From a virus: a DNA stretch of 40,750 nucleotides. The notes below the pieces were generated by a model, which saw only the letters and a list, made by a program, of their open reading frames with translations, ran no database searches and was not told where the DNA came from. The DNA lies in the IMG/VR virus record IMGVR_UViG_3300045141_000128, positions 1 to 40,750 of that record; one strand, 5' to 3'. How positions within the stretch are numbered: the first letter of the stretch is position 1; the number at the start of each line of letters is the position of its first letter. Made by a program: the position numbers and the translations under genes. Below, piece by piece: positions 5,520-27,237 of this stretch.

Positions 5520-5544
5520 CCCTCCAATCTCAAGGATGAAACCC

Positions 5545-6294
5545 ATGAAAAGCATCATTGCGGCCCTTGCGGGCCTCCTCTTCGCCAGCACCAGCGTGCT
5601 CGCGGCAGGTCAATTCCAGGGCCTCCCGAATGTGGTCTTTCCCGGTACGCAATCGATCGGCGCCCCGCCCTCGGCGGGCAACGCGATCGGTTCGGCAACG
5701 ATCCCGGCCGGCGGCTGTATTCCGATGGATACCGGCAATCCGAGCGGCATTGTCCCGGCGACGGTGTGCGTCAGTCCGAGCCAGCTCGCCGCGTATGGTT
5801 CGGGCGGCGCCCGCATGTATTTCCAGTCGGCGCAGATACCTGTCGGTATTCCGCTGACCTCCTACGGCACCGATACGGTGGTGGGGAATGGGACGATCTA
5901 CTTCGCCGAGGTGATTGCCGGCGTCGGCGCGACGATAACCTCGATCAGCTGCCTGAACGGCTCGGTGGTCGGGACCGATAATCTGATCTACGGGCTCTAC
6001 AGCGCAGCCGGGGCGAAGCTCGCCAACACCGCGCTGGGTGGAGTTCTGTCGGCGGGTGCCAATGCCTTCCAGGCGGCGATCCCGCTGACCACGCCGCTCG
6101 TCTCCCCGGCCGGCATTCTGTTCGTGACCGTTCAGACCAACGGCACCACGGCGAGGATCAGGACGATCAACGCCAATGCCAGCCAGCACTGGATCGAGTT
6201 CGCGGTGGCCGGGGCGTTTGGCGCGTTGCCGGCGTCGGTGAACGTGCCGAACACGGCAACGCCCAATGTCGGGCCGATCTGCGTGCTGCAATAA
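5545..6294 (+). CDS. Secreted beta-rich protein with signal peptide (249 aa)
   Basis: The N-terminus MKSIIAALAGLLFASTSVLA followed by AGQF is a classical Sec signal peptide with an A-x-A type cleavage site. ATG 5545 is chosen over ATG 5536 because AAGGA at 5532-5536 is 8 bases from 5545 and overlaps 5536. The mature part is Gly/Ala/Thr/Ser-rich and beta-like, with four cysteines (GGCIP, ATVCV, SISCL, PICVL), an even number compatible with disulphide bonds in the periplasm. It contains TIYFAEVIAGVGATITSISC, reminiscent of phage receptor-binding or decoration proteins. No enzyme motif is seen. It is the first of a run of proteins with signal peptides. Confidence 0.7.
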   Translation: MKSIIAALAGLLFASTSVLAAGQFQGLPNVVFPGTQSIGAPPSAGNAIGSATIPAGGCIPMDTGNPSGIVPATVCVSPSQLAAYGSGGARMYFQSAQIPVGIPLTSYGTDTVVGNGTIYFAEVIAGVGATITSISCLNGSVVGTDNLIYGLYSAAGAKLANTALGGVLSAGANAFQAAIPLTTPLVSPAGILFVTVQTNGTTARIRTINANASQHWIEFAVAGAFGALPASVNVPNTATPNVGPICVLQ

Positions 6295-6387: not shown

Positions 6388-6894
6388 ATGAAGCGCTACC
6401 TCCTAGCTTCCCTGGCCATCGTGGCCACGGTCGTTGCGGCGATGGCCGCGAACGATTTGACGCTGTCGACCGGGACGAAGTTCTTGCCGGGCCCCAGGCT
6501 GATCGACGGCAATGACCTCAACGTCATGCTTGGCACGGTCAACCTGCTCAACGACAGGTCCGACGGCACGGCTCCGCTCCTGCCGAGCTGCGCGGTGACC
6601 GGCTCGGGCACTGCCGCGACCTGCAACGGTGTCAAAGGGGTGGTGACCACCGCAGCTTTGACCACCGCAGCTTTGACCGATGTTTCCTACACGATCACCA
6701 ATTCGAGCGTGACTGCGGCGTCGGTGGTGCAATGCACCAACCAGGGCTATTCCGGCGTCTTTTTCACGGCCGGTGTGCCAGAGATTCTGAGCTGCGTGCC
6801 GGGGGCCTCCTCGATCGTGGTGCATCTGGCTAATACCCACGCCACCGTGGCTCTCAACGGCACGGTCAAGATCGGCTTCCGGGTGAATAACTGA
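6388..6894 (+). CDS. Secreted modular protein: LSTG module plus TTAAL module
   Basis: A signal peptide (MKRYLLASLAIVATVVAAMA) is followed by LTLSTGTKFLPGPRLIDGND, which matches the N-terminus of the protein encoded at 17153, and then a C-terminal module of about 100 residues (CNGVKGVVTTAALT ... IGFRVNN) that matches the C-terminus of the beta-helix protein encoded at 17494. The four cysteines of the C-terminal module are conserved in both. A perfect 15-bp tandem duplication at 6646-6675 repeats TTAAL in this copy only. The protein may therefore be a shortened relative or assembly partner of the spike system at 17153-19314. Its 3' end joins the next gene by TGATG. Confidence 0.7.
   Translation: MKRYLLASLAIVATVVAAMAANDLTLSTGTKFLPGPRLIDGNDLNVMLGTVNLLNDRSDGTAPLLPSCAVTGSGTAATCNGVKGVVTTAALTTAALTDVSYTITNSSVTAASVVQCTNQGYSGVFFTAGVPEILSCVPGASSIVVHLANTHATVALNGTVKIGFRVNN
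6646..6675 (+). repeat. 15-bp in-frame tandem duplication
   Basis: ACCACCGCAGCTTTG occurs at 6646-6660 and 6661-6675 without change, doubling TTAAL. The homologous module near 19080 has one copy, so this looks like a recent in-frame duplication. Confidence 0.85.
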
Positions 6895-7628
6895 TGACCC
6901 TCCGCCACCTCATCGCGATCGCCCTGGCGCTCGCGGCCTGGAGCCTGCCGGCCCACGCCGCCCCGCCGGGGACGATCAATCAGTACAACGCAGTCTGCGA
7001 CCCGCTCTTCCCGACGCGGTGTCAGTCGGTCAGTCAGGTGCCCGGCGGCGCCACCGGCACCTTCGGCCAGACGGTGGTGGTGCCGAACGGCGGCTCGGTG
7101 GCCCTCGGGTCGACCACTGACGCGGCCTGCGCCACTGGCTCGACCACGGCCTGCACGCTGATCGCCCTGATCAAGTGGCTCAACAGCGCCGGGCTTCTGA
7201 TCACCGGCACGGCCAGTATCCCCTCGCCGCAGGTGATCAGTTCGCAGGGCATCCCTGGCGGCGTCCCGATGGGCGTCAGCATGACCGGCAGCGGGCCGAT
7301 CATTCAGATCAACGGCAACGCGCAGGGCACGACCGGAGCGGTGGTCGCCACGCTCGCTGCCGTCGCGGCCAAGACCACCTTCATCTGCGGCTTCGACGTT
7401 TCGGCGATTGGCGGCACGGCGGCGGTAGGGCCGGTCACCGTGGCCGGGATTGTTGGATCGTCGCAGATTTATCAGGTCACCTCGACGGCTGTCGGTGTGC
7501 TCTTCGGGCCGATGAATTTCAACCCGTGCATTCCGGCGAGCGCTCCCAACACGGCGATCACGATCACGACGACGGCGGACGCCACGGCGACGGCGGTCGA
7601 CGTCAACAGCTGGGGCTACCAGCAATGA
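6894..7628 (+). CDS. Secreted cysteine-containing protein (244 aa)
   Basis: The signal peptide MTLRHLIAIALALAAWSLPAHA precedes a mature chain with six cysteines in three close groups (VCDPLFPTRCQ, ACATGSTTAC, ICGFD with NPCIP). The middle contains TLIALIKWLNSAGLLITGT and a Gly/Thr-rich beta region ends in TAVDVNSWGYQQ. It has the look of a phage surface-exposed or decoration protein, but no defined family is recognised. The start is shared with the previous stop (TGATG) and the end overlaps the following small gene (ATGA), so it is in the same coupled operon as the other signal-peptide genes. Confidence 0.7.
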   Translation: MTLRHLIAIALALAAWSLPAHAAPPGTINQYNAVCDPLFPTRCQSVSQVPGGATGTFGQTVVVPNGGSVALGSTTDAACATGSTTACTLIALIKWLNSAGLLITGTASIPSPQVISSQGIPGGVPMGVSMTGSGPIIQINGNAQGTTGAVVATLAAVAAKTTFICGFDVSAIGGTAAVGPVTVAGIVGSSQIYQVTSTAVGVLFGPMNFNPCIPASAPNTAITITTTADATATAVDVNSWGYQQ

Positions 7629-7843
7629 CCGAGGCTACTCCCTACAAGATGATCGATACGTGGGAGTACGACATTCTCGGCCTCCCGCTCAACGACGAGG
7701 CCTTCGACGCGCTCGGCTCGGCTGGCTGGGAGCTGGTCTGCTGGCTGCCCTCGATGGACGCGCAGGGCAATCGCCTGTTCATCTTCAAACATCACCTGCT
7801 CGTGCAAGACCCCACGGCTCCCGCCCCGGAGGCGCAACGGTGA
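7625..7843 (+). CDS. DUF4177-like small protein (72 aa)
   Basis: The product follows the DUF4177 layout: WEYDILGLPLNDEAFDALGS, then AGWELVCWLP, and a final beta strand LFIFKHHL. The GWELV motif after a predicted helix is the family hallmark; its function is unknown. It has no signal peptide, unlike both neighbours. The start is in ATGA with the previous gene and the stop overlaps a GTG start (GTGA) of the next. Confidence 0.6.
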   Translation: MTEATPYKMIDTWEYDILGLPLNDEAFDALGSAGWELVCWLPSMDAQGNRLFIFKHHLLVQDPTAPAPEAQR

Positions 7844-10473
7844 GATTCGCCGCCTTTCTCGCCGGGCTCCTGTTCGCTATGGCAGCCCTGGCGGGCCCGC
7901 CGGTCACCCTGCGTGGCCCGGCCCCCGATGTCGCCCTGGACTTCATCCACAACGCCGCCGTCGCCTCCGGGTGCGGGTCGACCGCAACGAGCTGCATCAC
8001 CGACACGCGGGCCTCGACCAAGTGGTGCGACTACCTCAACGGCAATTGGGTGAGCGTGACGGCCAACGTTCCATGCATCACCGACAGAGGGTTCCTGATC
8101 GAAGACCCCGCCACCAACTATATCCGCAACAACTCCATGCAGGGCGCTGTTATAGCTGCGCCGGGGACGCTACCCACCAACTGGGTAGACAATATGAGCG
8201 GCCCGCTCAACGGTATCTCTCGCAGTATTGTCGGGCTAGGGACTGAGAATGGCATAGATTATATCGATTATCGGCTTTCCGGCACTGCCTCGACGGGCAC
8301 GACGATCAATCTTAACCTAGAGACAAATAACTCCACCGCAGCCGCTAGAAATCAGAAGTGGACAGAGTCGTTTTTCCTCTATCTCAAGGCCGGGTCGACC
8401 AATAATGGCGGGCTGACAGTCAAGCTGGCTATTTACGGCTTGAACTCGGCGTTCACCACGACTGAGACTGCCTTTTCGCCTGTTACAATAACGGGTTTTG
8501 CCCCGTTGGGACTGTCTCGCTCATCGCTTGGTATGTCTCTCACGAATGCAGCTACGGTCTGGGTTAAGCCCGTCGTTGCATTCACCATAGTTAGCGGGAA
8601 TGTTATTGACGCGACCTTCCGCATCGGCTGGCCGCAAATGGAGAGGCAACAAATCACCGGGGAACCGGGCCTCGGCTATAGCGCCGAGATGACCTCGCCG
8701 ATACGTACTGTCAACGCTGCTGTCGTCAGGGCTGGTGACATTGTCAGCCTGACCAATCCCCCTGTATTCGGTAGCAAGTTCACCATGTACGCTGCCGCAG
8801 TCCCGACTGTTGATGATACTCCCGTATGGTTGATGTCGGCGGGTGTACCGTCTAACAGCGGCAAGGCGTTCGGGATGTATTTGTCTGCCGGCGGCGGCGC
8901 GAGTCTGAAGATTGCTGGTTGCGCTACTAATTGGGATTATTCTTTTACAAACAATGTCTGGGCTAGGTGGCAGCCAGTAAAGCTGGCGTGCTCGGCCGCC
9001 CCGGATGGTGTTTCCGGCAATCGTATTGTCAGCCTGAATGGCAGCCTCGACAGCGTTACGTACCCGCCGGACAATGATCCGACTGTACCGGCGCTCCAGA
9101 CCGTGTCGATAGGTAGCTCCAGTCCGACCTACACTGGTGGGGACGCCTACATCACTGCCATCGGGATATGGCCGACCGTCCAGCTTACGGCTGACGCGCT
9201 CAAGGCGATCACCACCGTGGCTCCGACGCCGATCCCCGACATATGGCTGGACTTCGCCGGCAATGCCGCTGTCGCCCCCGCCGTTCCTGGCTGTGGGCCG
9301 ATGGTGACGAGCTGCCTGACGACGACGCGGGCATCGCCGAAGGCTTGCGATAACAAGGATGGCAGTTGGCTCACCGTGGGCAACAACGTGGCCTGCGTCA
9401 CCGACAAGGGCATCCTCGTGGAGGGGTCGGCGATTAATTACGTGCGCAACAACACGATGGTCGGGGCTGCCGCAGGAGGGGCACTGCCGACCAACTGGAG
9501 CTTTGGCAACGTCTCCGGGCTGTCGTCGCAGGTCGTCGGCACGGGCGTGGATGGTGGCATCGATTACGTCGACATCCGGCTGTTCGGCACGACGTCAGGA
9601 GCTGGTGCTGTAACGCTGGTTCTTGAGCCTCAATCCAGCGGTTCCTTTACCTCCCAATGGGATGGCTGGTGCGCATCTGTTTTTGTGCGTCTTGTTGGCG
9701 GAACGGCGGCCAACGTCACCGGGGTTGCCTCCACGGTAGTGGAGCTGAATAGCACGGGAGGATTTCTTGCGAGTGCGTCGAGCCCGCTTGTCGCTCCGAC
9801 CTCTGCGTTCCAGCGGCTGACGCAAGCCATCACGTTTCTCGATCCGGCGGCAGGCAGCTCCGGTTCGAGGCTGGACATGGGGATCGCGGGCAGCGGGCTG
9901 CCGGTCGACATCACCCTCCGCATTGGCTGGCCGCAACTGGAGTTTGGTCAAGGTCCGAGCAGTCCGATCAGAACGCTGGGCAGCGCGTCGGTAACGCGGG
10001 AGGCCGATGCGGTGTGGGTGACTACGCCGACGACGGTATTCGGCCGCGCAGTCAGCATGTACGCAGCCTATACACCTCTCACGCTCGGCGCTTTTACTGT
10101 CACTGCCGTTGTCAACGTATCCGATGGCACGACCAACAACCGCGCTCACTTAAGCAGGGATAACAATGGCCGCCTGCAAGTTATGTACTATGCTCAGAAT
10201 GTCGGTGCCGGTATTTCAGGCAGCGAGGACATACCCACCGGCATCCCCGCCAAAATGGCTGGTGCGTTTCAGAGCGGGGACCAAGCCGGTGTGGTCAATG
10301 GGGGTGCGCCGCTCAGCCTCGCCGTGTTCGGCGCTTTTCCTCCTCTGAGCAGGATCGCCATCGGCGGCTGGCCGAACGGGAGCTTTGGCTACGTCAACGG
10401 CTACATCACGCAGGTCGGTGTCTGGACGAAGACCCGCCTGTCCAATGACCAGCTCGTAGGTCTGACACGATGA
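7840..10473 (+). CDS. Large secreted protein with two spike-fibre/LamG-like modules
   Basis: GTG 7840 opens a signal peptide (VRFAAFLAGLLFAMAALAG). Two homologous modules follow, from about residues 25 and 465. Each begins with an LDF...SC(I/L)T-TRAS...CD-x-G-W...N-x-(P/A)C(I/V)TD(R/K)G block leading to a TNYIRNN or INYVRNN segment. That resembles the TRAS...GLLIE-ARTN block of phage head-spike-fibre proteins, with extra cysteines. A beta-sandwich region comes next and each module ends in a LamG-like strand (LSNDQLVGLT in the second). In module 1 the paired cysteines continue later (AGCATN, KLACSA). The likely role is carbohydrate or surface binding. Codons in 8100-9200 are visibly more A/T-rich than neighbours, suggesting recombination in module 1. 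Confidence 0.78.
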   Translation: MRFAAFLAGLLFAMAALAGPPVTLRGPAPDVALDFIHNAAVASGCGSTATSCITDTRASTKWCDYLNGNWVSVTANVPCITDRGFLIEDPATNYIRNNSMQGAVIAAPGTLPTNWVDNMSGPLNGISRSIVGLGTENGIDYIDYRLSGTASTGTTINLNLETNNSTAAARNQKWTESFFLYLKAGSTNNGGLTVKLAIYGLNSAFTTTETAFSPVTITGFAPLGLSRSSLGMSLTNAATVWVKPVVAFTIVSGNVIDATFRIGWPQMERQQITGEPGLGYSAEMTSPIRTVNAAVVRAGDIVSLTNPPVFGSKFTMYAAAVPTVDDTPVWLMSAGVPSNSGKAFGMYLSAGGGASLKIAGCATNWDYSFTNNVWARWQPVKLACSAAPDGVSGNRIVSLNGSLDSVTYPPDNDPTVPALQTVSIGSSSPTYTGGDAYITAIGIWPTVQLTADALKAITTVAPTPIPDIWLDFAGNAAVAPAVPGCGPMVTSCLTTTRASPKACDNKDGSWLTVGNNVACVTDKGILVEGSAINYVRNNTMVGAAAGGALPTNWSFGNVSGLSSQVVGTGVDGGIDYVDIRLFGTTSGAGAVTLVLEPQSSGSFTSQWDGWCASVFVRLVGGTAANVTGVASTVVELNSTGGFLASASSPLVAPTSAFQRLTQAITFLDPAAGSSGSRLDMGIAGSGLPVDITLRIGWPQLEFGQGPSSPIRTLGSASVTREADAVWVTTPTTVFGRAVSMYAAYTPLTLGAFTVTAVVNVSDGTTNNRAHLSRDNNGRLQVMYYAQNVGAGISGSEDIPTGIPAKMAGAFQSGDQAGVVNGGAPLSLAVFGAFPPLSRIAIGGWPNGSFGYVNGYITQVGVWTKTRLSNDQLVGLTR

Positions 10474-13127
10474 AGCTCGCTCTCGCCGCTCTTGCGCTGC
10501 TGGTGGCCGTCTCGGCGGCCTTGGGCAATGCGTTCTTCCCGGCCGGGCAGTTGACGCCTCCGCCGAGCGTCTGGATCGACTTCACGCGCAATTTCGGCAG
10601 GGGTGCGGCCTGCACGGGGTCGGCGGCGAGCTGCATCACGGTGAACCGACCCTCGGTCAGATACTGCGACACGATCAGCGGGACGTGGATCAGCGCGGCG
10701 GCCAATCAGCCCTGCATGACCGACAAGGGGCTGTTCACGGAGGAGGCGCGGACCAACTGGATCAGGAACAACGTAGGTGTCGGTGCGGTTCCCGGCACAC
10801 CGGGGACCGTACCGACCAACTGGAGCATCACTGGTGGTGGGGCGGGCCTATCAACTCAAGTGGTCGGTACTGGCGTCGAGAATGGTATAGATTATGTAGA
10901 TTTAAGGTGGTTTGGGACAGCAGTAGCCAGCTCAGCTTCATTTAGTACCGAGAATACCAAAGGAGTGATAGCGGTATCGACTGGACAGGTCTGGACTAGT
11001 TCAGTTTTCTTAAAGTTGGTTGCCGGGAGCTTTACCAATACACTCAATTGGAACTTGATCGTAGCGTCATGGGACAGTGGTGGCGTATATCAGGGCAACC
11101 TAGCTGGCTCGCCTCTGCTAGGAGTTCCATCTTCAAGCGGGATTATGCAGAGATATTCCGCCAACATTACGATTACTCCGCCCACTGCGGTATCGGTTAC
11201 TCAGCAGATATTTTTCAACACGGCTGCCGGACCAGTTGATTTCACCGTCCGAGTTGGCTGGTCCCAGCTTGAGCTGGGTGCGTTTGTCACCAGTCCGATC
11301 CGAACGACAGGCGCTGCGCTGGCGCGGAATACAGACGTGGTCACGTTAAATAGTCCGCCAAGTTTGGCTGGTCCGCTTTCCGTGTATCAGGACATGACGC
11401 CGACTTGGGTGACCAATTCGGCGTCTGTGTATTACCCGGTATCACTAGATTCCGGGGCGACTGCCAATAGCCTTCAGGTACGTCAATCGTCTCTGATTGG
11501 TGGCGCGGATTTGTTCCAAGTGTCTGGGGGGCTGGTCAACGTTGATACTGGTTCATTCTCGATGCCTCTGGGCTCTAACAACAAGATTGCCTTTACCACA
11601 GCTGCGGACGATGTGGCTTACGTTATTAATGGCGCTGGAGCGGCGTTACAGACGGATAATTTAGCTCCTCTTCCAGTCGGCATGAACAGAATAGGGTGGG
11701 GCATTTGGACCGCTGCTCCTCAGTACGTTCGGCAATTTGGCCTCTGGTCGGGCACCCGGCTGACCAACGACCAGCTCGTGAACATAACTACCCCCTCAAA
11801 GCTGCCCGACGTGTGGCTCGACTTCGCTGGCGACAACGCGATTGGCTGCCCCGTCACCGGCCCAGTGGCGGCGAACTGCCTCACGGTGGCGAGGGCTGGC
11901 AGCCGATGGTGCGACACCAAGGCGGGCACTTGGATCAGCGCGGCGGCCAACCTGCCGTGCATCACGGACAAAGGCTTGCTGGTCGAGGAGGCGAGAACCA
12001 ACGGTATCCGCAACAACGCGATGATCGGGGCAGTGCCGGGGACGCCCGGCACGCTGCCGACGTTCGGCTGGAACGTGACGGTGCCCAACGGCCTGACCAC
12101 CAACGTCATCGGGACCGGCGTTGAAAGCGGCATCGATTATATCGATTTGCAGATAGTCGGAACCGCTGCCAGCACGCAGTGGGGAATGGTTTTCGAGGCA
12201 GCCGGGATAATCGCAGCGGCGCAAAACCAAGTTTGGTCCGACTCCATGTTCTGGAAGCTGGCTGGCGGCAGTTTGACCAACATCACCAACCTTCAGATAG
12301 GGATCACTCAGGCAGATGCCGGTAACGTGTTCCTGGCTAATACCGAGGCGACACAGACATCGCCGACAAGTGCAGGACTGAGCGCTCAGCGCGTCATCGC
12401 CTCGCTTACAGCCGATCAGGTTGGTGTCGCGTCTTTACGCCCCAACCTGTTGATCAACATGACGGCTGGGCAGGCGATCAATCTGACCCTCCGCATCGGC
12501 TGGCCGCAAGCGGAGCTGAACTCGATAGGGCATGCCTCGGCCTTCGCCACCTCGCCGATCCGCACTGCCGGGGCTGCCGTCACCCGCGCCGCCGACCTCA
12601 TCACCATGACCCAGCCGCCGCCGATCTTTGGCAGCGCCTTCTCGGTGTACGCGGCAGGCACTCCGATGGCTAACGTTGAGTACAATGTCCAGCAGACGCC
12701 GGTCACCCTGAGCAATGGCACGCCCGATCACCGCGTCGAGATAGACCGGCAGTCGCCGCTTGGTGTCGAGCGCATACTCTACGAGGTCAACGTCGCTGTC
12801 GGAGGGGCGAACGGGGTCACCGCCATGCCAACCGGCGTGCCGCTAAAGATGGCGGCAGGGATGAGGGCCGGCGATCAGGCCGGGGTTGCCAATGGCGGGA
12901 CGCCGGTCACGCTGGCCTTTGGCGGGACGCCGACCATCAACACGGTGACGATTGGAGGTGGGCCAAACGGGCAAACGTACTGGAACGGCTACCTCACAGC
13001 GGTGGGCGTGTGGGGCTCGCAGCGCCTCTCCAACGCCGACCTCACCGCGCTGACAAGGTCGCTGTCGACGGGCACCCTGGTCGAGGCCGAGGAACCGCGC
13101 GAGCCCCGCTTACGGCTGCGCCAATGA
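10470..13127 (+). CDS. Second large secreted protein with two spike-fibre/LamG-like modules
   Basis: This is a paralogue of the gene immediately upstream, starting in its stop (ATGA). A signal peptide (MKLALAALALLVAVSAALG) precedes modules at about residues 34 and 447. Each has the four-cysteine block (SCITVNRPSVRYCD in the first, NCLTVARAGSRWCD in the second), then TDKGL(F/L)(T/V)EEARTN, RNN, GTPGT(V/L)PT, and VIGTGVESGIDYIDLQ or the equivalent. LamG-like ends are RLTNDQLVNIT and RLSNADLTALT. A polar tail EAEEPREPRLRLRQ closes the protein. The middle of module 1 (10880-11700) is A/T-rich compared with the flanks. A receptor-binding or host-surface-decorating function is inferred from the fold. 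Confidence 0.78.
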   Translation: MKLALAALALLVAVSAALGNAFFPAGQLTPPPSVWIDFTRNFGRGAACTGSAASCITVNRPSVRYCDTISGTWISAAANQPCMTDKGLFTEEARTNWIRNNVGVGAVPGTPGTVPTNWSITGGGAGLSTQVVGTGVENGIDYVDLRWFGTAVASSASFSTENTKGVIAVSTGQVWTSSVFLKLVAGSFTNTLNWNLIVASWDSGGVYQGNLAGSPLLGVPSSSGIMQRYSANITITPPTAVSVTQQIFFNTAAGPVDFTVRVGWSQLELGAFVTSPIRTTGAALARNTDVVTLNSPPSLAGPLSVYQDMTPTWVTNSASVYYPVSLDSGATANSLQVRQSSLIGGADLFQVSGGLVNVDTGSFSMPLGSNNKIAFTTAADDVAYVINGAGAALQTDNLAPLPVGMNRIGWGIWTAAPQYVRQFGLWSGTRLTNDQLVNITTPSKLPDVWLDFAGDNAIGCPVTGPVAANCLTVARAGSRWCDTKAGTWISAAANLPCITDKGLLVEEARTNGIRNNAMIGAVPGTPGTLPTFGWNVTVPNGLTTNVIGTGVESGIDYIDLQIVGTAASTQWGMVFEAAGIIAAAQNQVWSDSMFWKLAGGSLTNITNLQIGITQADAGNVFLANTEATQTSPTSAGLSAQRVIASLTADQVGVASLRPNLLINMTAGQAINLTLRIGWPQAELNSIGHASAFATSPIRTAGAAVTRAADLITMTQPPPIFGSAFSVYAAGTPMANVEYNVQQTPVTLSNGTPDHRVEIDRQSPLGVERILYEVNVAVGGANGVTAMPTGVPLKMAAGMRAGDQAGVANGGTPVTLAFGGTPTINTVTIGGGPNGQTYWNGYLTAVGVWGSQRLSNADLTALTRSLSTGTLVEAEEPREPRLRLRQ

Positions 13128-14704
13128 GCGATGTCCTCGACAAGCTCAACAGCATCCTTGGCCGGTTTGCCCCCGACCAGCAGGCCGAGCTCCTCGACAC
13201 CGCCAAGCGCAAGGCCAAGTCGATTTGGATACCCAACCCCGGTCGGCAGACGCTGGCCTACCTCTCCGACGCTGACTGGCTGCTCTACGGCGGCGCGGCC
13301 GGCGGCGGCAAGACCGACCTCTTGTTGGGGACGGCCCTGACCCAGCACGAGAACTCCGTGATCTTCCGCCGCCAGGGCGTCGACTTGCGCGGCACCGAGG
13401 ATCGGCTGATCGAGATTCTCGGTTCCAGGAACGGCTACAATGCGACCGACATGAAGCTCAAGCACTCCAGGGGCATCCTCGAATTCGGGGCCTTGGAGAA
13501 GCCGCACTCCGAGCTGACGTGGCAGGGCCGTCCGCACGACTTCATCGGATTCGATGAGGGCGCCCAGCTCAGCCTGGACAAGGTGCTCTACGTCACCGGC
13601 TGGCTGCGCAGCGTCACGCCGGACATCCGCAAGCGCGTGGTCATTGCGACCAACCCGCCGACCGGCGGCGACGGCGAGTGGGTGATCGAGTGGTTTGCGC
13701 CCTGGCTCGACCCGACATTTCCTGATCCGGCCGAGCACGGTGAGCTCCGCTGGGCCATCGTCGTGGATCGCAAGCTGCGCTGGGTCGGTGGGCCCGGTGT
13801 CACGACGATCGGCGGACACACCTACACGCACGAGAGCTACACATTCATCCTCAGCCTCCTGGAGGATAATCCCTGGCTCTCGGCGACCGGCTACCGGGCC
13901 CGCATCGAAAACCTCCCCGAGCCTCTGCGCTCGCAGCTCCTGCACGGCGATTTCCTGGCGGGCAGAGAGGATCACGAGTGGCAAGTGATCCCCACCGACT
14001 GGGTCAAGGCGGCGCAGGAGCGCTGGCGCAAGGCGCCGCAGAAAACGCGGACGATGCTGGCCCTCGCCATGGACGTCGCCATGGGCGGGCCGGACGTCAC
14101 CACGATCGCGGCCCTGCACGAGGAGGCGTGGTTCGCACCGATCATCACGCGGCCGGGTGTCGCCACCAATGACCCGGTCCAGCACGCTGCCCTACTTATC
14201 CTCTCACGTCGTGATGAGGCCGATATCTCGGTCGACGCGACGGGCGGCTGGGGTACGGGTATTCTCTCGCACCTGAAGCACCAGCACGGCATCCCCTGTT
14301 CCGGGCTGGTGTTCAGCCGCAAGTCCAACCTCAAGGCCCGCGACGGCAAGCTCGGCTTCAGGAATTTGAGGGCCGAGATGTACTGGCGCTTCCGGGAGGC
14401 CCTGTCCCCCGATTCCGGTTTTGACGTCATGCTGCCGCCGAGCCCCAGGCTGCTCGGCCAGCTGACCACGCCGCGCTATGAGGTGCGCAGCACCGACCTC
14501 CTCATCGAGGACAAGGAAGGCATCCGCAAGCGCACTGGGGGCAGCACTGACGAGGCCGACGCCGTCGTGATGGCGTGGCACCGCCGGGGCTCCTCGACGC
14601 GCCTACGGCCCACCCTGGTGCCGGGGCTGCCGCCGCTGTCGGACTGGGAGCGGCCGGTCTACGAAGAGTCGCCCTGGCGTACAGATAGGTGGATGCTGCA
14701 ATGA
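13124..14704 (+). CDS. terL: Terminase large subunit
   Basis: The 526-residue protein is the DNA-packaging motor ATPase/nuclease. Walker A is GGAAGGGKT at residues 56-64, Walker B with the catalytic Glu is FIGFDE at 140-145, and an ATPase coupling segment ATNPP lies near 175. The C-terminal RNase-H-like nuclease has acidic residues in AMDVAMGG (D317), SVDATGGWG (D371) and DEADAVVMAW (D476, D479). ATG 13124 is chosen for the ATGA overlap with the preceding gene; an upstream in-frame extension would overlap that gene by over 100 bases. The stop overlaps the portal start. No small terminase is adjacent, which is unusual; the best candidate is the fragment at 1-195. Confidence 0.95.
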   Translation: MSDVLDKLNSILGRFAPDQQAELLDTAKRKAKSIWIPNPGRQTLAYLSDADWLLYGGAAGGGKTDLLLGTALTQHENSVIFRRQGVDLRGTEDRLIEILGSRNGYNATDMKLKHSRGILEFGALEKPHSELTWQGRPHDFIGFDEGAQLSLDKVLYVTGWLRSVTPDIRKRVVIATNPPTGGDGEWVIEWFAPWLDPTFPDPAEHGELRWAIVVDRKLRWVGGPGVTTIGGHTYTHESYTFILSLLEDNPWLSATGYRARIENLPEPLRSQLLHGDFLAGREDHEWQVIPTDWVKAAQERWRKAPQKTRTMLALAMDVAMGGPDVTTIAALHEEAWFAPIITRPGVATNDPVQHAALLILSRRDEADISVDATGGWGTGILSHLKHQHGIPCSGLVFSRKSNLKARDGKLGFRNLRAEMYWRFREALSPDSGFDVMLPPSPRLLGQLTTPRYEVRSTDLLIEDKEGIRKRTGGSTDEADAVVMAWHRRGSSTRLRPTLVPGLPPLSDWERPVYEESPWRTDRWMLQ

Positions 14705-16950
14705 CGCCGGAGGAAATCGCCCTTGATGTGATGCGCGGCGATGAGCAGGTCATCGCCATCGGCAAGGCCCGCTGGCAGCGCTGCCAGGACTTTGAGGGCA
14801 CCGCTCAGCAGCGCTGGCGGGCGGATCAGAAATTTCACTGGGCCGACCCGGATAACGGCTGGCAGTGGCCGGGCTACCTGTGGTCGACAAAGCGCGACGA
14901 TCCCGCCGGCTATAAGCCGCGCTTGACCGTGAACAAAGTCCGCCAGCACAATCTGCAAATCACCAACGACCATCGCCAGAACAAGCCCGGCATCAAGATC
15001 ACGCCGGTTGGCGACAAGGCCTCGTTTGAGGCCGCCAAAATCTGGATGGGGCTGGTCCGCCATATCGAGCGGGTGAGCAAGGCGACGGTCGCCTACTCAA
15101 CCGCGTCGGACTTCCAGGTCCAGTCGGGGCTCGGCTACATCAGGGTGACCTGGGAGTACATTCCCGGCACCTTCGACAAGGAGATTTTCATTCGCCGGGT
15201 GAGGAACCCGCTCAATGTCTTCCTCGATCCCGATAAAAATGAGGTCGACGGCTCCGACGCCCGTTTCGGATTTTACTTTGACGACACGCCGCGCGCCGAG
15301 TTCCTGGCGCAGTACCCGCACATGCGCAGCAAGGTCGGCGAAGCCGCGTTCGGCAATTCGCATGGCTGGATCGACCAGGACCATGTCCGGCAGGCCGAGT
15401 ATTTCACCAAGCGGATGAAGAAGGACCGGCTGGTCCTGCTGAAGGATCGCGGCGGCGACGGCCCCAATGCCATGGGCATGGCGCGGTGGTCGAAAATCCC
15501 GCCTGCGATCCGAGCTCAGATCGAGCCCGGCGACATCCAGCAGGAGCGCGAATTCCTGGACGAGGAGGTGCTCTGGTACAAGATCGCCGGCAATGAAATT
15601 GTTGATCGCGGCAAGTGGCCGGGGAGGTTCATCCCGCTGGTCCCGGTGGTCGGCGAGGAGACGGTGATCGACGGCATCCTCGATCGCAAGGGTCATACGC
15701 GCGGCATGAAAGACGCCCAGCGCATGTACAATTTTTGGACCTCAAATGCCGTCGAGCAGGTCGCACTACAGACGAAAGCGAAATGGTTTATCCCGGTGGG
15801 GGCGACCGACAGCCTCGACGCCTATTTCAAAACGATCAACACCAGCAACTACCCCTACATTCCGATCAACGCTTTTGACAGCGAGGGCCGGCAGCTGCCA
15901 CCACCCTCGCCGATCGATCCGCCGACGATGGCCGACGGTTACATCAAGGGCATGATGATCAGCCGCGACGAGCTGATGATGGTGTCGGGGCAACGCGAGG
16001 AGAATTTCGGACAGCCGACCAACGCCATCAGCGGGGTCGCAATCAATGAACGCCAGCGCAAGGGCGACAATGCCACCTACCACTACATCGACGGGCTGGC
16101 GATCGCGATCCGGCAGGTCGGCAACATCATCCTGGACGTCGCGCCGCTGATCTACACGACCGCGCAGGTGCGCCAGATTCTCGCCGAGGACGGTTCGGAG
16201 CAGCTGATCCAGATCGATCCTTACGCCGACGCCGCCTATGCCGAGCAGAAGGTCGGCCCCGACGACAAAATTTGGGTGGTCTTCAATCCGAAGGTCGGCC
16301 GTTACTGGGTCGATTCAGATATTGGTCCGAGCTACGCGACCAAGCGCCAGGAGGCGTGGGACGCCTTCGTCCAGCTGACCAGCCAGAACCAGGAGCTGGT
16401 CACGATCATCGGCGACTTGATGTTCCGTAATGCGGATTTTCCTGGCGCCGACGAGATCGCCGATCGGCTCAAGCGGATGGTCCCGCCGCAGGCCCTGGGC
16501 CAGGGGCCCGATGCCGCTCTCCAGGCCGCTCAAAGTCAGAACCAATCGCTCCAGTCATTGCTCGCGGAGATGACCGACAAGCTGGCCAAGCAGGAGCTCG
16601 AAATCAAAGACCATGCCGAGCGGCGCCGGATCGAACAGCAAGACGCCGATACCAGGAGGCTCAAGGAGGTCGGCAACGCCGAGAGCAATCTCGGCGAGGA
16701 TCAGCTCCGCCCGATCATCGAGAAGCTCTTGCGCGACATCCTGGGCGAGAAGCAATCGGAGCCCAGCGACACAGACAACGAAGCGGCGGCAGAGGAGCCA
16801 GAGCAGCCACAGGACCAGCAGGACCAGCAGGACCAGGAGGCGCCGCCGATGGATGGCGCAGAGCAGGCGCCGGACGGGAATTGGTACATCGCTGACCCAG
16901 AGCGGCCGGGCAAATACATGCAGGTTGAGGCCGAGGCCGGTGCGCAGTGA
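14701..16950 (+). CDS. P22-like portal protein
   Basis: The 749-residue protein has the order and motifs of the P22-type portal family: WRADQKFHWADPDNGWQWPG near the start, LTVNKVRQHNLQITNDHRQN, then NPLNVFLDPDKNEVDGSDAR, and GQREENFGQPTNAISGVAIN near residue 430. It ends with a long coiled coil (about residues 600-690) and an acidic Gln/Glu/Asp tail, matching the barrel extension seen in P22 portals. It forms the dodecameric gate at the capsid vertex through which terminase packages DNA. ATG 14701 lies in the ATGA overlap with terL. Confidence 0.93.
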   Translation: MTPEEIALDVMRGDEQVIAIGKARWQRCQDFEGTAQQRWRADQKFHWADPDNGWQWPGYLWSTKRDDPAGYKPRLTVNKVRQHNLQITNDHRQNKPGIKITPVGDKASFEAAKIWMGLVRHIERVSKATVAYSTASDFQVQSGLGYIRVTWEYIPGTFDKEIFIRRVRNPLNVFLDPDKNEVDGSDARFGFYFDDTPRAEFLAQYPHMRSKVGEAAFGNSHGWIDQDHVRQAEYFTKRMKKDRLVLLKDRGGDGPNAMGMARWSKIPPAIRAQIEPGDIQQEREFLDEEVLWYKIAGNEIVDRGKWPGRFIPLVPVVGEETVIDGILDRKGHTRGMKDAQRMYNFWTSNAVEQVALQTKAKWFIPVGATDSLDAYFKTINTSNYPYIPINAFDSEGRQLPPPSPIDPPTMADGYIKGMMISRDELMMVSGQREENFGQPTNAISGVAINERQRKGDNATYHYIDGLAIAIRQVGNIILDVAPLIYTTAQVRQILAEDGSEQLIQIDPYADAAYAEQKVGPDDKIWVVFNPKVGRYWVDSDIGPSYATKRQEAWDAFVQLTSQNQELVTIIGDLMFRNADFPGADEIADRLKRMVPPQALGQGPDAALQAAQSQNQSLQSLLAEMTDKLAKQELEIKDHAERRRIEQQDADTRRLKEVGNAESNLGEDQLRPIIEKLLRDILGEKQSEPSDTDNEAAAEEPEQPQDQQDQQDQEAPPMDGAEQAPDGNWYIADPERPGKYMQVEAEAGAQ

Positions 16951-17156
16951 TGGACTATCGCGGCATCGCCGCCATCATCCTAGCGACCTCGATCGGTTTG
17001 ACCTTGGTCATCGGGGCTGCGGCTGTCGGCTTCTGGGGCCGTGCCATGAGTGAGGTTGGCGGACAAGCGATGATCGCGATCGGCGGGGCCATCGTCGGGG
17101 CGCTTGCCGGGTACGTGACGGGAAGGACGTCGCACGGCGACGGTGGTGGCAAATGA
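16950..17156 (+). CDS. Small two-helix membrane protein, holin candidate (68 aa)
   Basis: Two hydrophobic stretches, at about residues 7-27 (IAAIILATSIGLTLVIGAAA) and 38-60, are separated by a short polar turn, and the end is hydrophilic (TGRTSHGDGGGK). The size and topology match phage holins, and the GH19-type endolysin is three genes downstream. Family signatures are absent, so holin is an inference. Start and stop overlap both neighbours (TGATG and ATGA). Confidence 0.6.
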   Translation: MDYRGIAAIILATSIGLTLVIGAAAVGFWGRAMSEVGGQAMIAIGGAIVGALAGYVTGRTSHGDGGGK

Positions 17157-17497
17157 CCTTATTGTTCTCGACCGGGCGTAAGTTCCTCCCTGGCTGGCGC
17201 CTGCACGACGGCAACGACATCAACATCATTGTCGACTGGATCAACGCCACCAATCTGGTGCCATCGACTCAGGTGACGATGGTGCAGATGCGCAAGGCCC
17301 TGGTCAGCACGGGTGGTGGGGCGATCTACACGGTGCAGAACGGTATCTCAGCGGATATCGCCGATCCGGTGAACATCGCATGGTCATCGGGCAACGTGGT
17401 TTCGCCGGGTGATGTGCTCGCGGTCAGCATCCAGGCATCGCTGGGTTACACCGCCCAGCAGATGACTTCACTGTTCGCACTAGCGAGGACGCTATGA
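17153..17497 (+). CDS. Small beta protein with FSTG-KFLPG N-terminal module (114 aa)
   Basis: The N-terminus LLFSTGRKFLPGWRLHDGND is closely similar to the mature N-terminus of the protein encoded at 6388 (STGTKFLPGPRLIDGND). Here it has no signal peptide. The rest (VSTGGGAIYTVQNGISADIA, PGDVLAVSIQASLGYTAQQM) is beta-rich. It overlaps the next gene, a spike candidate, by ATGA and may be its virion-attachment or chaperone partner; that role is inferred only from context. Confidence 0.65.
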   Translation: MTLLFSTGRKFLPGWRLHDGNDINIIVDWINATNLVPSTQVTMVQMRKALVSTGGGAIYTVQNGISADIADPVNIAWSSGNVVSPGDVLAVSIQASLGYTAQQMTSLFALARTL

Positions 17498-19314
17498 TGA
17501 TCCGCTGGCTGCTCGCTGGAATCATGCTCGCCGCGTTCCCGGCAGTGGCGGCGGAGACGGCGGTCGATTGGGGGCTGACGACTGGGCTGGAGCCGCGATC
17601 GCTCTGCGTTTACGACACCTCGACGCTGCACACCTGTGTCCCGATCGGGAAGCTGGACTCGACTGCGCACACCTTCAACAGCCTGGGCAATACGGCCTCG
17701 GTCTGTAACGTGGCTGCTAATGGGGCCGACCCTACGGGCGTGGCGGACAGCTCACCGGCATTGATTGCCTGCGCCGCCAAAGTGGTGAACGGACAGAAGG
17801 CTAACATATACCTCCCGGCCGGCACGTATCTGCTGAAGAGCCGGATCACGGTCGGCGACCAGTGTCTGTTTGGCGATGGTAGAGGCAACTCGTTCATCCG
17901 GGTCGACCGGACATTTGACCCCGCCGCCGACTCGGTTATCAAGCTGCTCGGGACAAGAAACTGGACGGTGACGGGAAGCTCGGCGGCGCCGTGCGTCCAC
18001 GACATCGACATCCAGTTCGATCAGCCGTTCGACCAGGGCGTTCGCGCGAACTTCAAGACGCTGGCTGCGGGCTGCACTAGCGCTCTCGGCGGCACCGGCT
18101 GCAAGTATCCTCCCGCAATCTACAACGACAACGGCACGTCGGGAGGCAGGCCGAGGCTGTACAACATCCGAATCGAGCGGGCTTGGGATGGCATAAATCT
18201 GCAGGCTGCCGGCGGGATGATGATCGACAACATCGAGGAGGGCTCGCTCGATGCTGGTCTGACCTTGGCCAATGGCGGCGATTTTGGCTACGTTTCGCAT
18301 TGGGAGCATCATAGTCAATTCGGTTTGCCATCCACCGCTGCCCTGTACACGGGCGTGTATCAGGACGGCGGGACCTTCGCTGCGGTCATCCACAGAACCG
18401 ACGGTGTCTACATCCACGACATGCGCATCTGGCAAGGCCGGGTGAAGCTCGACACCGGGTTCTCTTGGGGGACGTTCGACGGCCTGTTCTTGGACGGCAA
18501 CAACTCCACGCTGGACATCGCCAATGTCAGCGACAATCAGATCGGCCTGCGGATAATCGGCGGATACCAGACCGGGACGTCCTCCGGGGTCAACACTGAT
18601 TGCCCGGTGCAGGTGGACAGCACGGTGCTCGGTGAGGTCATCATCTCCAGCTTCTTCTTCTCGTCGTCGGTGAAGTCGTCCCTGTGTGTTGCTGGAGGCG
18701 TTGTGGACGTATCCGGGTCGAACTTCGTTGATAATACGGTCGCGGCGGCGGCAACCGTAGTGCAAACCGGGGGATATTTGCAGATAGAGAATAGTCAATT
18801 CGGGGCCAATACCGGGGCCGGGGTGTATAGCTTCCCGGTTATAAGTCAGACAGGGGGCAGCATAAGACTGATCAGCAATTACTTCAGGAGCACACCGCAG
18901 GCCGGCAGCGTCAACGTCATGAGCCTGACTGACAGTGTCGATAATTATGCGATTGCTAATCAGTTCGGCGGCTGGACGTTTGCGCCTCCCGGGCCGCTCG
19001 GCACTTATGGCCCCAACGGCCAGAAATGCAACGCTTCGGGCGCGTCCCCCAGGGCGTGTAATGGCTGGTCGGGAGCCGTGACGACTGCCGCGCTGACGAA
19101 CCCGGCCTTTACCACCTCGACTTACGTGATCACCGACACTTCAGTGGTTCCTGCGTCTTTGGTCAGGTGCTCGATACAGGCCTACGCGGGAGCCGGCGTG
19201 CCGATCATCACGCAGTGCGTGCCGACGGCCGGCACCATTACCGCCACCATCTACAACGCCCACAATACCGCTGCGCTCAATGCGGCGGTGACCATCGGGT
19301 TCACGATCCAATGA
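17494..19314 (+). CDS. Secreted right-handed beta-helix protein, tailspike candidate
   Basis: A hydrophobic N-terminus (MMIRWLLAGIMLAAFPAVAA) with an A-x-A-like site looks like a Sec signal. The segment SVCNVAANGADPTGVADSSP, followed by YLPAGTYLLKS, is the typical start of the pectate-lyase-superfamily beta-helix used by phage tailspikes. Helix turns continue (VYIHDMRIWQGRV, DGLFLDGNNSTLDIANVSDN) to about residue 500. Residues 508-606 form the TTAAL module shared with the protein at 6388. About 14 cysteines are present, unusual for a cytoplasmically folded spike. The likely role is binding or cleaving a host surface polysaccharide; catalytic residues cannot be assigned. Confidence 0.8.
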   Translation: MMIRWLLAGIMLAAFPAVAAETAVDWGLTTGLEPRSLCVYDTSTLHTCVPIGKLDSTAHTFNSLGNTASVCNVAANGADPTGVADSSPALIACAAKVVNGQKANIYLPAGTYLLKSRITVGDQCLFGDGRGNSFIRVDRTFDPAADSVIKLLGTRNWTVTGSSAAPCVHDIDIQFDQPFDQGVRANFKTLAAGCTSALGGTGCKYPPAIYNDNGTSGGRPRLYNIRIERAWDGINLQAAGGMMIDNIEEGSLDAGLTLANGGDFGYVSHWEHHSQFGLPSTAALYTGVYQDGGTFAAVIHRTDGVYIHDMRIWQGRVKLDTGFSWGTFDGLFLDGNNSTLDIANVSDNQIGLRIIGGYQTGTSSGVNTDCPVQVDSTVLGEVIISSFFFSSSVKSSLCVAGGVVDVSGSNFVDNTVAAAATVVQTGGYLQIENSQFGANTGAGVYSFPVISQTGGSIRLISNYFRSTPQAGSVNVMSLTDSVDNYAIANQFGGWTFAPPGPLGTYGPNGQKCNASGASPRACNGWSGAVTTAALTNPAFTTSTYVITDTSVVPASLVRCSIQAYAGAGVPIITQCVPTAGTITATIYNAHNTAALNAAVTIGFTIQ

Positions 19315-24530: not shown

Positions 24531-25745
24531 ATGCCCAATGCAATTCTTACCATCAGCATGATCACTCGTGCGGCGGTTCGTATTTGGAAGAACACAAACT
24601 TCTTCATCCAAAATATCAACACGCAGTACGATGATCAGTTCGCGCGAGACGGGGCCAAGATCGGCACTAGTCTTCGCATTAGACTTCCCAACGAATACAC
24701 TGTTCGTCACGGACCCTCGGCGCAGCCGCAGGATACCAACGAGCAGCAGATCGTCATGACGCTCGCGACCCAGGACGGCATCGACGTTTCGTTCTCGTCG
24801 GTCGAGCGGACGATGCAGCTGGACGATTATGTCGAGCGCATCCTGGCCCCCAAGATCGCGTTTTTGACGGCCGATGTGGCCTTCACCATCATGGCCGGCC
24901 TGGAGGGCAGCGTCGCCAACTACGTCTCGAACGTCGATGGCAACAATGCCGTGATGTCCCCGACCCAGTTCACGGTGCTCCGCGCTCGCGCGGCATTGAT
25001 GAACAACTCGGCTCCCCCAGGTCAGCGCAAGTTAGTGTTCGCTCCGAACACGGGCGCCGGCATGGTGTCGACACTGTCCGGCCTGCTCAACCCGGCTCCG
25101 GCGATCAGCCGTCAATACATGGAGGGCACCATGTACGACGCGCTCGGCTTCCGCTGGTTTGAAGATCAGACGGTGATTCAACACACCACGGGGTCGTTTA
25201 CTTCGGGGACCGTGAACGGTGCTGGCCAGACCGGCGTCGCTTCGGTCGTGACCACCGCGATTGTCGGCACGCTCAATGCCGGCGACTTCATTACGATGGC
25301 GGGTGTCTTCGGGATCAACAAGCTGACGCGCCAGACGCTCGGCACGCTGAAGCAATTTGTGGTCACGGGCAACGTTCTCAGTGGTGCGACCAGCGTTCCG
25401 ATTTATCCGGCGCTCGTGGCTCCGGTGGGTGGTGTGCCGGTGCAGTACCAGACCGTGACAGCCTCGCCGGCCTCCGGCGCGGCGATCGCGCTCGTCAATT
25501 TGGCGAACGAAGTCTACGTCAAAAATATTGCGTACCAACCCGACGCATTCACCATGGCCACGGCTGACCTCGAATTGCCGGAAGGCGTGTGGGAGCGCTC
25601 GCGCGCGGTGTTCGACGGCATCAGCATGCGGTCGATCCTGGCCTACAATCCTCAGACCGATCAGGCGATCGACAGGCTCGACGTCTTGTTCGGATTCTTG
25701 GGGACACGCGGCGAGTGGGCCGTCGCGATTGCCGATCGTCCGTAA
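24531..25745 (+). CDS. P22-like major capsid (coat) protein
   Basis: The 404-residue protein starts MPNAILTISMITRAAVRIWK and continues with LRIRLPNEYTVRHG and VSFSSVERTMQLDDYVERIL, the pattern of the P22-type coat family, an HK97-fold protein with an inserted Ig-like domain. The Gly/Val/Thr-rich segment at about residues 220-330 (SGTVNGAGQTGVASVVTTAI) corresponds to the insertion domain. The end is DVLFGFLGTRGEWAVAIADR. It forms the icosahedral shell. The ribosome-binding site is weak for such an abundant protein, but the gene has its own leader and a downstream terminator. Confidence 0.93.
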   Translation: MPNAILTISMITRAAVRIWKNTNFFIQNINTQYDDQFARDGAKIGTSLRIRLPNEYTVRHGPSAQPQDTNEQQIVMTLATQDGIDVSFSSVERTMQLDDYVERILAPKIAFLTADVAFTIMAGLEGSVANYVSNVDGNNAVMSPTQFTVLRARAALMNNSAPPGQRKLVFAPNTGAGMVSTLSGLLNPAPAISRQYMEGTMYDALGFRWFEDQTVIQHTTGSFTSGTVNGAGQTGVASVVTTAIVGTLNAGDFITMAGVFGINKLTRQTLGTLKQFVVTGNVLSGATSVPIYPALVAPVGGVPVQYQTVTASPASGAAIALVNLANEVYVKNIAYQPDAFTMATADLELPEGVWERSRAVFDGISMRSILAYNPQTDQAIDRLDVLFGFLGTRGEWAVAIADRP

Positions 25746-26520: not shown

Positions 26521-27237
26521 ATGCCGACGGCTCGGGACATCATCACCCTGGCGCTCCAGGATGCCGGCGTCACCGGCCAGGGGCTGACCCCGAGCGCGGT
26601 CGACATCAACAACGGCTTCACGCGCCTCAACGACATGCTGGCGCAGTGGAACGAGCAGCGCTGGCTGATCTACCACCTCGTGGCCACCGACCTGCTGATG
26701 ACCGGCGCGACCTCCTACACGGTCGGGCCGGGCGGTCAGTTCAGCATTCCCCGGCCCAGCCACCTGGAGGCCGCCCGCGTCATCCAGAACTCACCACCGT
26801 CCCCCAACGATGTCGGCTGGCCGCTCGATATCGTCCAGTCGATGGAGGCCTACAACAACATCCGCATGCAGCACCTGGGGAGCTTCCCCAGGTATGTCTT
26901 CCTCGACAGCGATTGGCCGCTGAGCAAGGTCTATTTCTGGCCGCTGCCGTCGAACCGCTACACCTGCCGGATCATCACCAAGGCCGCGCTCCAGTCGTTC
27001 GCGAATCTGAGCGACGACTACAACATGCCGCCCATGTATCTGAGGGCGATCCGCTTCAACCTCCAGGACGAGCTCCTGTCCGCCTATAAGCTGCCGCCGG
27101 ACGAGTACCTCAGCGCCCGCGCGGCCGGCGCACTCAACGTCGTGCGCAATGCCAATGCGCAAATTCCAGTGCTCAAGCTGCCGGCGGAATTAGTCAGAGG
27201 CGGTGTCTACAACGTCTTCACCGACAACACGGTCTAA
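26521..27237 (+). CDS. P22 gp4-like head-to-tail adaptor
   Basis: The 238-residue protein opens MPTARDIITLALQDAGVTGQ, followed by NNGFTRLNDMLAQWNEQRWL, typical of the P22 gp4 / packaged-DNA stabilisation family. It continues with FPRYVFLDSDWPLSKVYFWP and MPPMYLRAIRFNLQDELLSA. In P22 twelve copies of gp4 attach to the portal and extend the tail channel. Gene order coat, gp4, gp10 is the same as in P22. It starts one base after the previous stop. Confidence 0.88.
   Translation: MPTARDIITLALQDAGVTGQGLTPSAVDINNGFTRLNDMLAQWNEQRWLIYHLVATDLLMTGATSYTVGPGGQFSIPRPSHLEAARVIQNSPPSPNDVGWPLDIVQSMEAYNNIRMQHLGSFPRYVFLDSDWPLSKVYFWPLPSNRYTCRIITKAALQSFANLSDDYNMPPMYLRAIRFNLQDELLSAYKLPPDEYLSARAAGALNVVRNANAQIPVLKLPAELVRGGVYNVFTDNTV

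Follow-up and report, generated by a model that had tools for sequence, protein, structure and literature searches.

The question that this locus raises is why the two largest proteins of a phage genome, A and B, each built from cysteine-bearing modules, should begin with predicted Sec-type signal peptides, given the accepted view that the cytoplasm is where phage tail proteins fold and are assembled. The DNA analysed here, called the window, is an entire IMG/VR virus record (IMGVR_UViG_3300045141_000128, 40,750 bp) of an uncultured tailed phage, and its features are collected in Table 1. The reading that we prefer, with a probability of roughly 0.55, is that the putative adhesins are exported by Sec to the periplasm, mature there, and join the completed particles when the cell lyses.

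Table 1. Features of the window discussed in the text (a slash marks the predicted cleavage site).
Feature	Position	Strand	Remarks
Late protein with predicted signal peptide MKPMKSIIAALAGLLFASTSVLA/AGQ	5536..6294	+	4 Cys; counterpart in the near relative G019 also with signal peptide
Late protein with predicted signal peptide MKRYLLASLAIVATVVAAMA/AND	6388..6894	+	4 Cys; paralogue of 17153-17497
Late protein with predicted signal peptide MTLRHLIAIALALAAWSLPAHA/APP	6894..7628	+	6 Cys
Gene A, putative two-module adhesin, 877 aa	7840..10473	+	GTG start, GGAGG 7 nt upstream, GTGA overlap with upstream stop
A predicted signal peptide MRFAAFLAGLLFAMAALA/GPP	7840..7893	+	Rule score 39.9
Module A1	7918..9234	+	N-block 7918-8133, four Cys
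Module A2	9235..10470	+	N-block 9235-9453, four Cys
Gene B, putative two-module adhesin, 885 aa	10470..13127	+	ATG start; ATGA overlap with A
B predicted signal peptide MKLALAALALLVAVSAALG/NAF, or cut after VSA	10470..10526	+	Rule score 43.2
Module B1	10557..11801	+	N-block 10557-10772, four Cys
Module B2	11802..13073	+	N-block 11802-12017, four Cys; AF2 model pLDDT 89.6, pTM 0.88
Terminase large subunit (terL)	13124..14704	+	Directly 3' of B, ATGA overlap
P22-like portal	14689..16950	+	Pfam P22_portal, E 9.5e-140
Paralogue of 6388-6894 without signal peptide	17153..17497	+	MTLLFSTG start
Pectate-lyase-like spike with predicted signal peptide MMIRWLLAGIMLAAFPAVA/AET	17494..19314	+	14 Cys in mature part
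Major head protein	24531..25745	+	phrog_283
Ad3-like head-tail adaptor (26521-27237) and Hc3/gp10-like protein (27238-29553)	26521..29553	+
P22-type tailspike with predicted signal peptide MIRILLAAAVALFLAAPAGA/ITT	37060..38373	+	6 Cys
Virion-docking (head-binding) domain of tailspike	37120..37404	+	Begins at predicted cleavage site

Modules of genes A and B

An earlier note on this DNA had described positions 7840-13127 as two tandem giant genes with four copies of a cysteine-bearing module; the coordinates, the order of the modules and the four cysteines of each N-terminal block (N-block) are borne out, while "giant" goes too far for proteins of 877 and 885 aa, even if they are the largest of their genome. 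The motifs listed there generally read as described, with exceptions in B2 (NCLT and PT-FGW), A2 (ACVTDKG) and A1 (TDRG), and the signal peptides at the N-termini of A and B were not part of that description. Each protein consists of two modules of about 415 residues (A1 27-465, A2 466-877, B1 30-444, B2 445-868), with N-block cysteines at 45, 52, 63 and 79 (A1), 485, 492, 503 and 519 (A2), 48, 55, 66 and 82 (B1), and 460, 470, 481 and 497 (B2). All six pairs of modules are 34-43% identical over their whole length (some 400 aligned residues), and the local alignments exceed 200 of 200 shuffles for every segment and pair, with z values of 27-39 for the N-block, 18-34 for the middle and 18-48 for the C-terminal part; after the SPIRT motif z is still 9-40, so that the similarity stands far above the shuffles outside the cysteine block as well.

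The module is of a known kind, namely a GTA_spike_fiber-like domain combined with a LamG-like lectin. Of 17 aligned modules, 16 match the NCBIfam family GTA_spike_fiber (NF048003) with E ≤ 0.01 (lowest value 7e-16; B2 of the window, with 35.3 bits, lies just under the cut-off of 36), in agreement with the proposed kinship of the first block with phage and GTA head-spike-fibre domains. By profile, the closest solved relative is the RcGTA head spike fibre Rcc01080 (PDB 6tb9; E 0.0056), and RcGTA head fibres bind the capsule and attach the particle to it (PMC7296036). The sequence relation to Rcc01080 lies in the middle domain, to which A and B add the four-cysteine N-block, the LamG-like domain, the tandem arrangement and the signal peptide. 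In its AF2 model, B2 is a string of beta-sandwiches that in structure comparison resemble CBM22, CBM40, galectins and neurexin/laminin LG domains, and also match phage ConA-like proteins (TM 0.75) and tail fibre proteins. The LamG-like end suggested earlier is thus upheld as a LamG/ConA-like domain, with Pfam Laminin_G_3 matching the module only below the Pfam cut-off. Phage relatives of the module include gp49 of Azospirillum phage Cd (annotated as a tail protein) and the tail protein phrog_5939. The most probable role of A and B is therefore that of adhesins that bind glycans. The N-terminal peptide by which the RcGTA fibre is anchored to the head-spike base protein is not recognisable in A or B, and no virion-docking domain was recognised in either. 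Three module relatives without signal peptide (L034, L035 and L037) begin with MALGLGYGL, which resembles the peptide that anchors the RcGTA head fibre.

History of the modules

The IMG/VR relatives were found by a search with the module alignment; searches with A or B as single queries returned no relatives there. Of the relatives, which come from 47 loci of IMG/VR and nine contigs of bacteria, most are single-module proteins; two modules in one gene are seen in L008 and L011, and L012 and L021 have, respectively, three and two single-module genes in a row. The distances among the four window modules are as large as those that separate them from L006 and L008, and in the trees L006, which has a single module, branches from within the four. 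In trees of the N-block and middle, A1 pairs with A2 and B1 with B2 (support 90/88 and 89/60), and in the tree of the LamG part, A2 pairs with B2 (82/87); none of the tested pairings is rejected by the AU test. Duplication within a gene and then of the gene, the history favoured earlier, is therefore unsupported, and we dropped an ordered two-step duplication as a settled history; it is likely, as far as the sequences tell, that halves were shuffled between modules. These mosaic trees and the many single-module relatives would also suit an account in which single-module genes fused or recombined independently to give the module pairs, and the cysteines are structural in one lineage and unrelated to export. 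We consider this account the least probable of those weighed here, and return to it with the cysteines.

Predicted signal peptides on seven late genes

Sec-type signal peptides are predicted on A, B and five further late genes (starting at 5536, 6388, 6894, 17494 and 37060). The calls come from a rule of our own and not from SignalP, and the rule also calls some N-terminal membrane anchors; at its cut-off of 28, none of 23 cytosolic E. coli proteins passed, against 2 of 11 from the inner membrane and 5 of 6 that are exported. All seven window genes score at least 34 and present an n-region, a hydrophobic core and an A-x-A site, while the rule made no call on terL, portal, coat, Ad3, Hc3 or the ejection genes. 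The start overlaps the upstream stop by 1-4 bases in five of the seven (6894, 7840, 10470, 17494 and 37060). A tail hub of the Ad3-like and Hc3/gp10-like kind is the docking place of P22-type spikes.

For most of the small signal-peptide proteins of the window, Pfam and PHROGs gave no match. The paralogue at 17153-17497 starts at the place equivalent to the 6388-6894 protein minus its signal peptide, and an IMG/VR search with it as a single query found no relatives. One small protein of MW202566 is matched by the C-terminal parts of both the pectate-lyase-like spike (about residues 502-605) and the 6388 protein (about 71-166), and the domain that they have in common would be a surface domain. 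A 555-aa open frame at 1360-3027 is proline/alanine-rich and has no PHROG match.

The tailspike and its family

Residues 21-101 of the tailspike form a P22-type docking domain (profile matches to PDB 7eeq and 9vyg/9vyh, E 8e-10 to 2e-9) preceded by the 20-aa signal peptide, so the docking domain is at the predicted mature N-terminus. Nine relatives come from phage records, seven of cultured phages and two metagenomic, and in all of them Met1 aligns at the predicted cleavage site. The tailspikes of Xanthomonas phage PBR31, Rhodoferax phage P26218 and Thalassomonas phage BA3 resemble that of the window in this docking domain and in having a variable C-terminal part; however, the relatives in phage records start at the docking domain, whereas the window tailspike starts 20 residues earlier and has a cysteine pair in the domain. 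In L062 (Pseudomonas phage PAE2), the annotation leaves out the tailspike open frame (from 14864, + strand) and places an ORF of the reverse strand (14624-15073) across its start.

Scanning IMG/VR yielded 80 spike loci, which reduced to 69 non-redundant spikes including those of the phage records and the window. About one third of these (23 of 69) carry a hydrophobic leader by rule and 46 do not; inspection by eye then adds L088 and casts doubt on L109 (the strict rule missed L078-L080, L088 and L105, which visual inspection or a second rule picked up). A start codon at the docking domain is present in 45 of the 46 leaderless spikes and missing in 20 of the 23 with a leader; an A-x-A-type site lies within -4 to +2 of the domain start in 21 of these 23, and a Shine-Dalgarno-like 4-mer precedes the long start in 18 of 22. 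Mis-annotated starts were considered as the source of the leaders and rejected on the missing domain starts and the Shine-Dalgarno-like 4-mers. On the best spike tree, the leader was gained or lost at least six times, two of these changes being forced by well-supported branches.

These counts bear on the simplest objection, that nothing is exported, A, B and the spikes being ordinary cytoplasmic fibres whose hydrophobic N-termini are virion or membrane anchors, or whose true starts lie downstream. Known tail fibres assemble in the cytoplasm, the absence of signal peptides has been taken as a mark of phage origin and used to argue that a protein is phage-borne (PMC6199706), and gene A has an in-frame ATG at codon 14, inside the hydrophobic stretch. 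Nevertheless, the spikes that lack a start codon at the usual place, the long starts with Shine-Dalgarno-like motifs and stop-start overlaps, the A-x-A sites that coincide with the starts of unextended relatives, and the enrichment of cysteine in signal-peptide proteins (below) all argue against it, and we regard it as improbable.

The docking domain is much more conserved than the rest of the protein in all 190 pairs of 20 leader-bearing spikes, and is therefore still under constraint, most simply because it is still docking. The leader-bearing form was found in no phage record and in no cultured phage, and 754 genomes of alpha- and gammaproteobacterial classes (those of the Methylobacterium and Massilia genomes that served as centres), sampled for prophages, gave 11 spike matches, all without leader.

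The trait across genomes

Where module protein and spike occur in one record, the trait can be compared between them: in L009 the module protein and both spikes have signal peptides, in L016 both kinds of protein have them, and in L013 neither does. The module was sought in the records of 40 spike loci and found in one, as a partial match, so the evidence that the trait goes by genome comes from four genomes. L009 and L016 have a cassette of signal-peptide genes upstream of terL and a P22-like portal, and L006 has its module gene in the slot before terL and portal. In G019, a near relative of the window (terL 84%, portal 81%), the homologues of the 5536, 6388 and 6894 genes keep their signal peptides, and the slot of A and B (L176:8320-10029) is occupied by a signal-peptide protein of 569 aa that is unrelated to them, has 6 Cys and matches nothing in Pfam or PHROGs; the slot thus seems to exchange whole adhesins. 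Module proteins with signal peptide are also found in L023, which has another portal type, and in L060, a Methylobacterium gossipiicola contig that is probably a prophage. In L057 and L061 (alphaproteobacterial MAGs), the module proteins have a signal peptide and a long N-terminal extension, and these are perhaps cellular rather than phage genes.

Cysteines

The seven signal-peptide proteins hold 53 Cys in 3327 mature residues (1.59%), and in fourteen further structural or late genes the count is 13 in 6326 (0.21%), an odds ratio of 7.9 (p = 2e-14, counted per residue). In the spike family, the median is 1.38 Cys per 100 residues with a leader and 0.75 without (p = 7e-4, uncorrected for kinship). 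N-block cysteine pairs at aligned positions were found, by inspection, in 7 of 16 module rows with signal peptide and 0 of 33 others; three rows without signal peptide had first been tallied with two N-block cysteines, which on inspection fall outside the N-block or upstream of the start codon. The cysteines come as complete pairs (C3-C4 only in L012, C1-C2 only in L019, all four in L006), and the single pairs of L012 and L019 are the pattern expected of two disulphides. As the earlier note had it, the cysteines are absent from related phage proteins, in that most module relatives are without them. The idea that cysteine pairs are exclusive to exported proteins was weakened, as L114 and L115, without signal peptide, carry two cysteines near the spike positions.

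With phylogeny taken into account, the link between cysteines and export is not significant, the independent-pair tests on both trees having too few pairs. This is a further point for independent fusion with cysteines unrelated to export, yet that account leaves unexplained both the signal peptides and the gap in cysteine content between the signal-peptide proteins and the others of the window. The signal peptides give the likeliest reason for the N-block cysteines.

Possible export followed by docking, or another use

If the proteins are exported, they could still act apart from the virion, as free proteins that block or strip receptors (superinfection, adsorption to debris) or that degrade surface polysaccharide for release. 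Such a use would suit the signal peptides, the lectin-like fold, the pectate-lyase-like spike, and A and B with no recognised virion anchor. It also has a parallel in Acetobacter phage phiAX1 (LC644973), which like the window combines a P22-like portal with late proteins that have predicted signal peptides. In phiAX1 these are two neighbours, PhiAX1_440, which by eye resembles a fibre, and the GH66 enzyme PhiAX1_450; their families differ from those of the window. The phage was induced from Acetobacter, and its paper gives the PHAST prediction as incomplete; in its structural region (L065, 21419-24313), the deposited start of the GH66 gene lies downstream of the signal peptide. Against free proteins, the tailspike retains a docking domain at its predicted mature N-terminus, the most conserved part in the leader-bearing spikes, and the genes sit within the structural operon. 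We find this use unlikely, but it is the strongest of the three alternatives.

We infer, from sequence features, that the signal-peptide adhesins are exported, a step with good support from the computations, and that they would dock late, at lysis, rather than serve another use; disulphides and glycan binding of A and B are presumed in the same way. In the proposed course of events, A and B would be glycan-binding adhesins of a P22-type short-tailed phage, each with N-block, spike-fibre beta-sandwich and LamG-like lectin twice over. Together with the two spikes and the three small late proteins, they would be led by their Sec signal peptides into the host periplasm and cut by signal peptidase, and the four cysteines of each N-block may form two periplasmic disulphides, C1-C2 and C3-C4. 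Heads would meanwhile be packaged in the cytoplasm without adhesins, until lysis mixes the compartments and the adhesins could dock on the particles. P22 tailspikes are the last part to be added and can bind to completed heads in vitro, so late docking is possible. It is also known that Gram-negative cells can export phage-like trimeric fibres, namely the MAT fibres of Bdellovibrio (PMC10769870), which are phage-fibre-like adhesins with signal peptides, one of them with a disulphide in its tip; these are cellular proteins, unlike the phage-encoded adhesins of the window. In the open-licence papers searched, no report was found of signal peptides on tailspikes or of exported, late-docking adhesins.

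Conclusions

The sequences suggest that attachment proteins of this phage would mature outside the cytoplasm, the compartment where its particles are built. A wider reading, which we hold tentatively and at a little under even odds, is that a widespread set of uncultured tailed phages splits morphogenesis, with heads made in the cytoplasm and Sec-exported, oxidised adhesins joining at lysis, and that this state was repeatedly gained or lost through a signal peptide placed exactly at the start of the tailspike. The same tailspike family with and without a signal peptide, cut at one defined residue, offers a direct test. Export would explain how four cysteines in each module can be of use here and why most relatives lack them. 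If the adhesins are exported, changes would follow for the order in which particles are assembled, for how virion parts use disulphides, and for the annotation rule that a signal peptide means a host protein.
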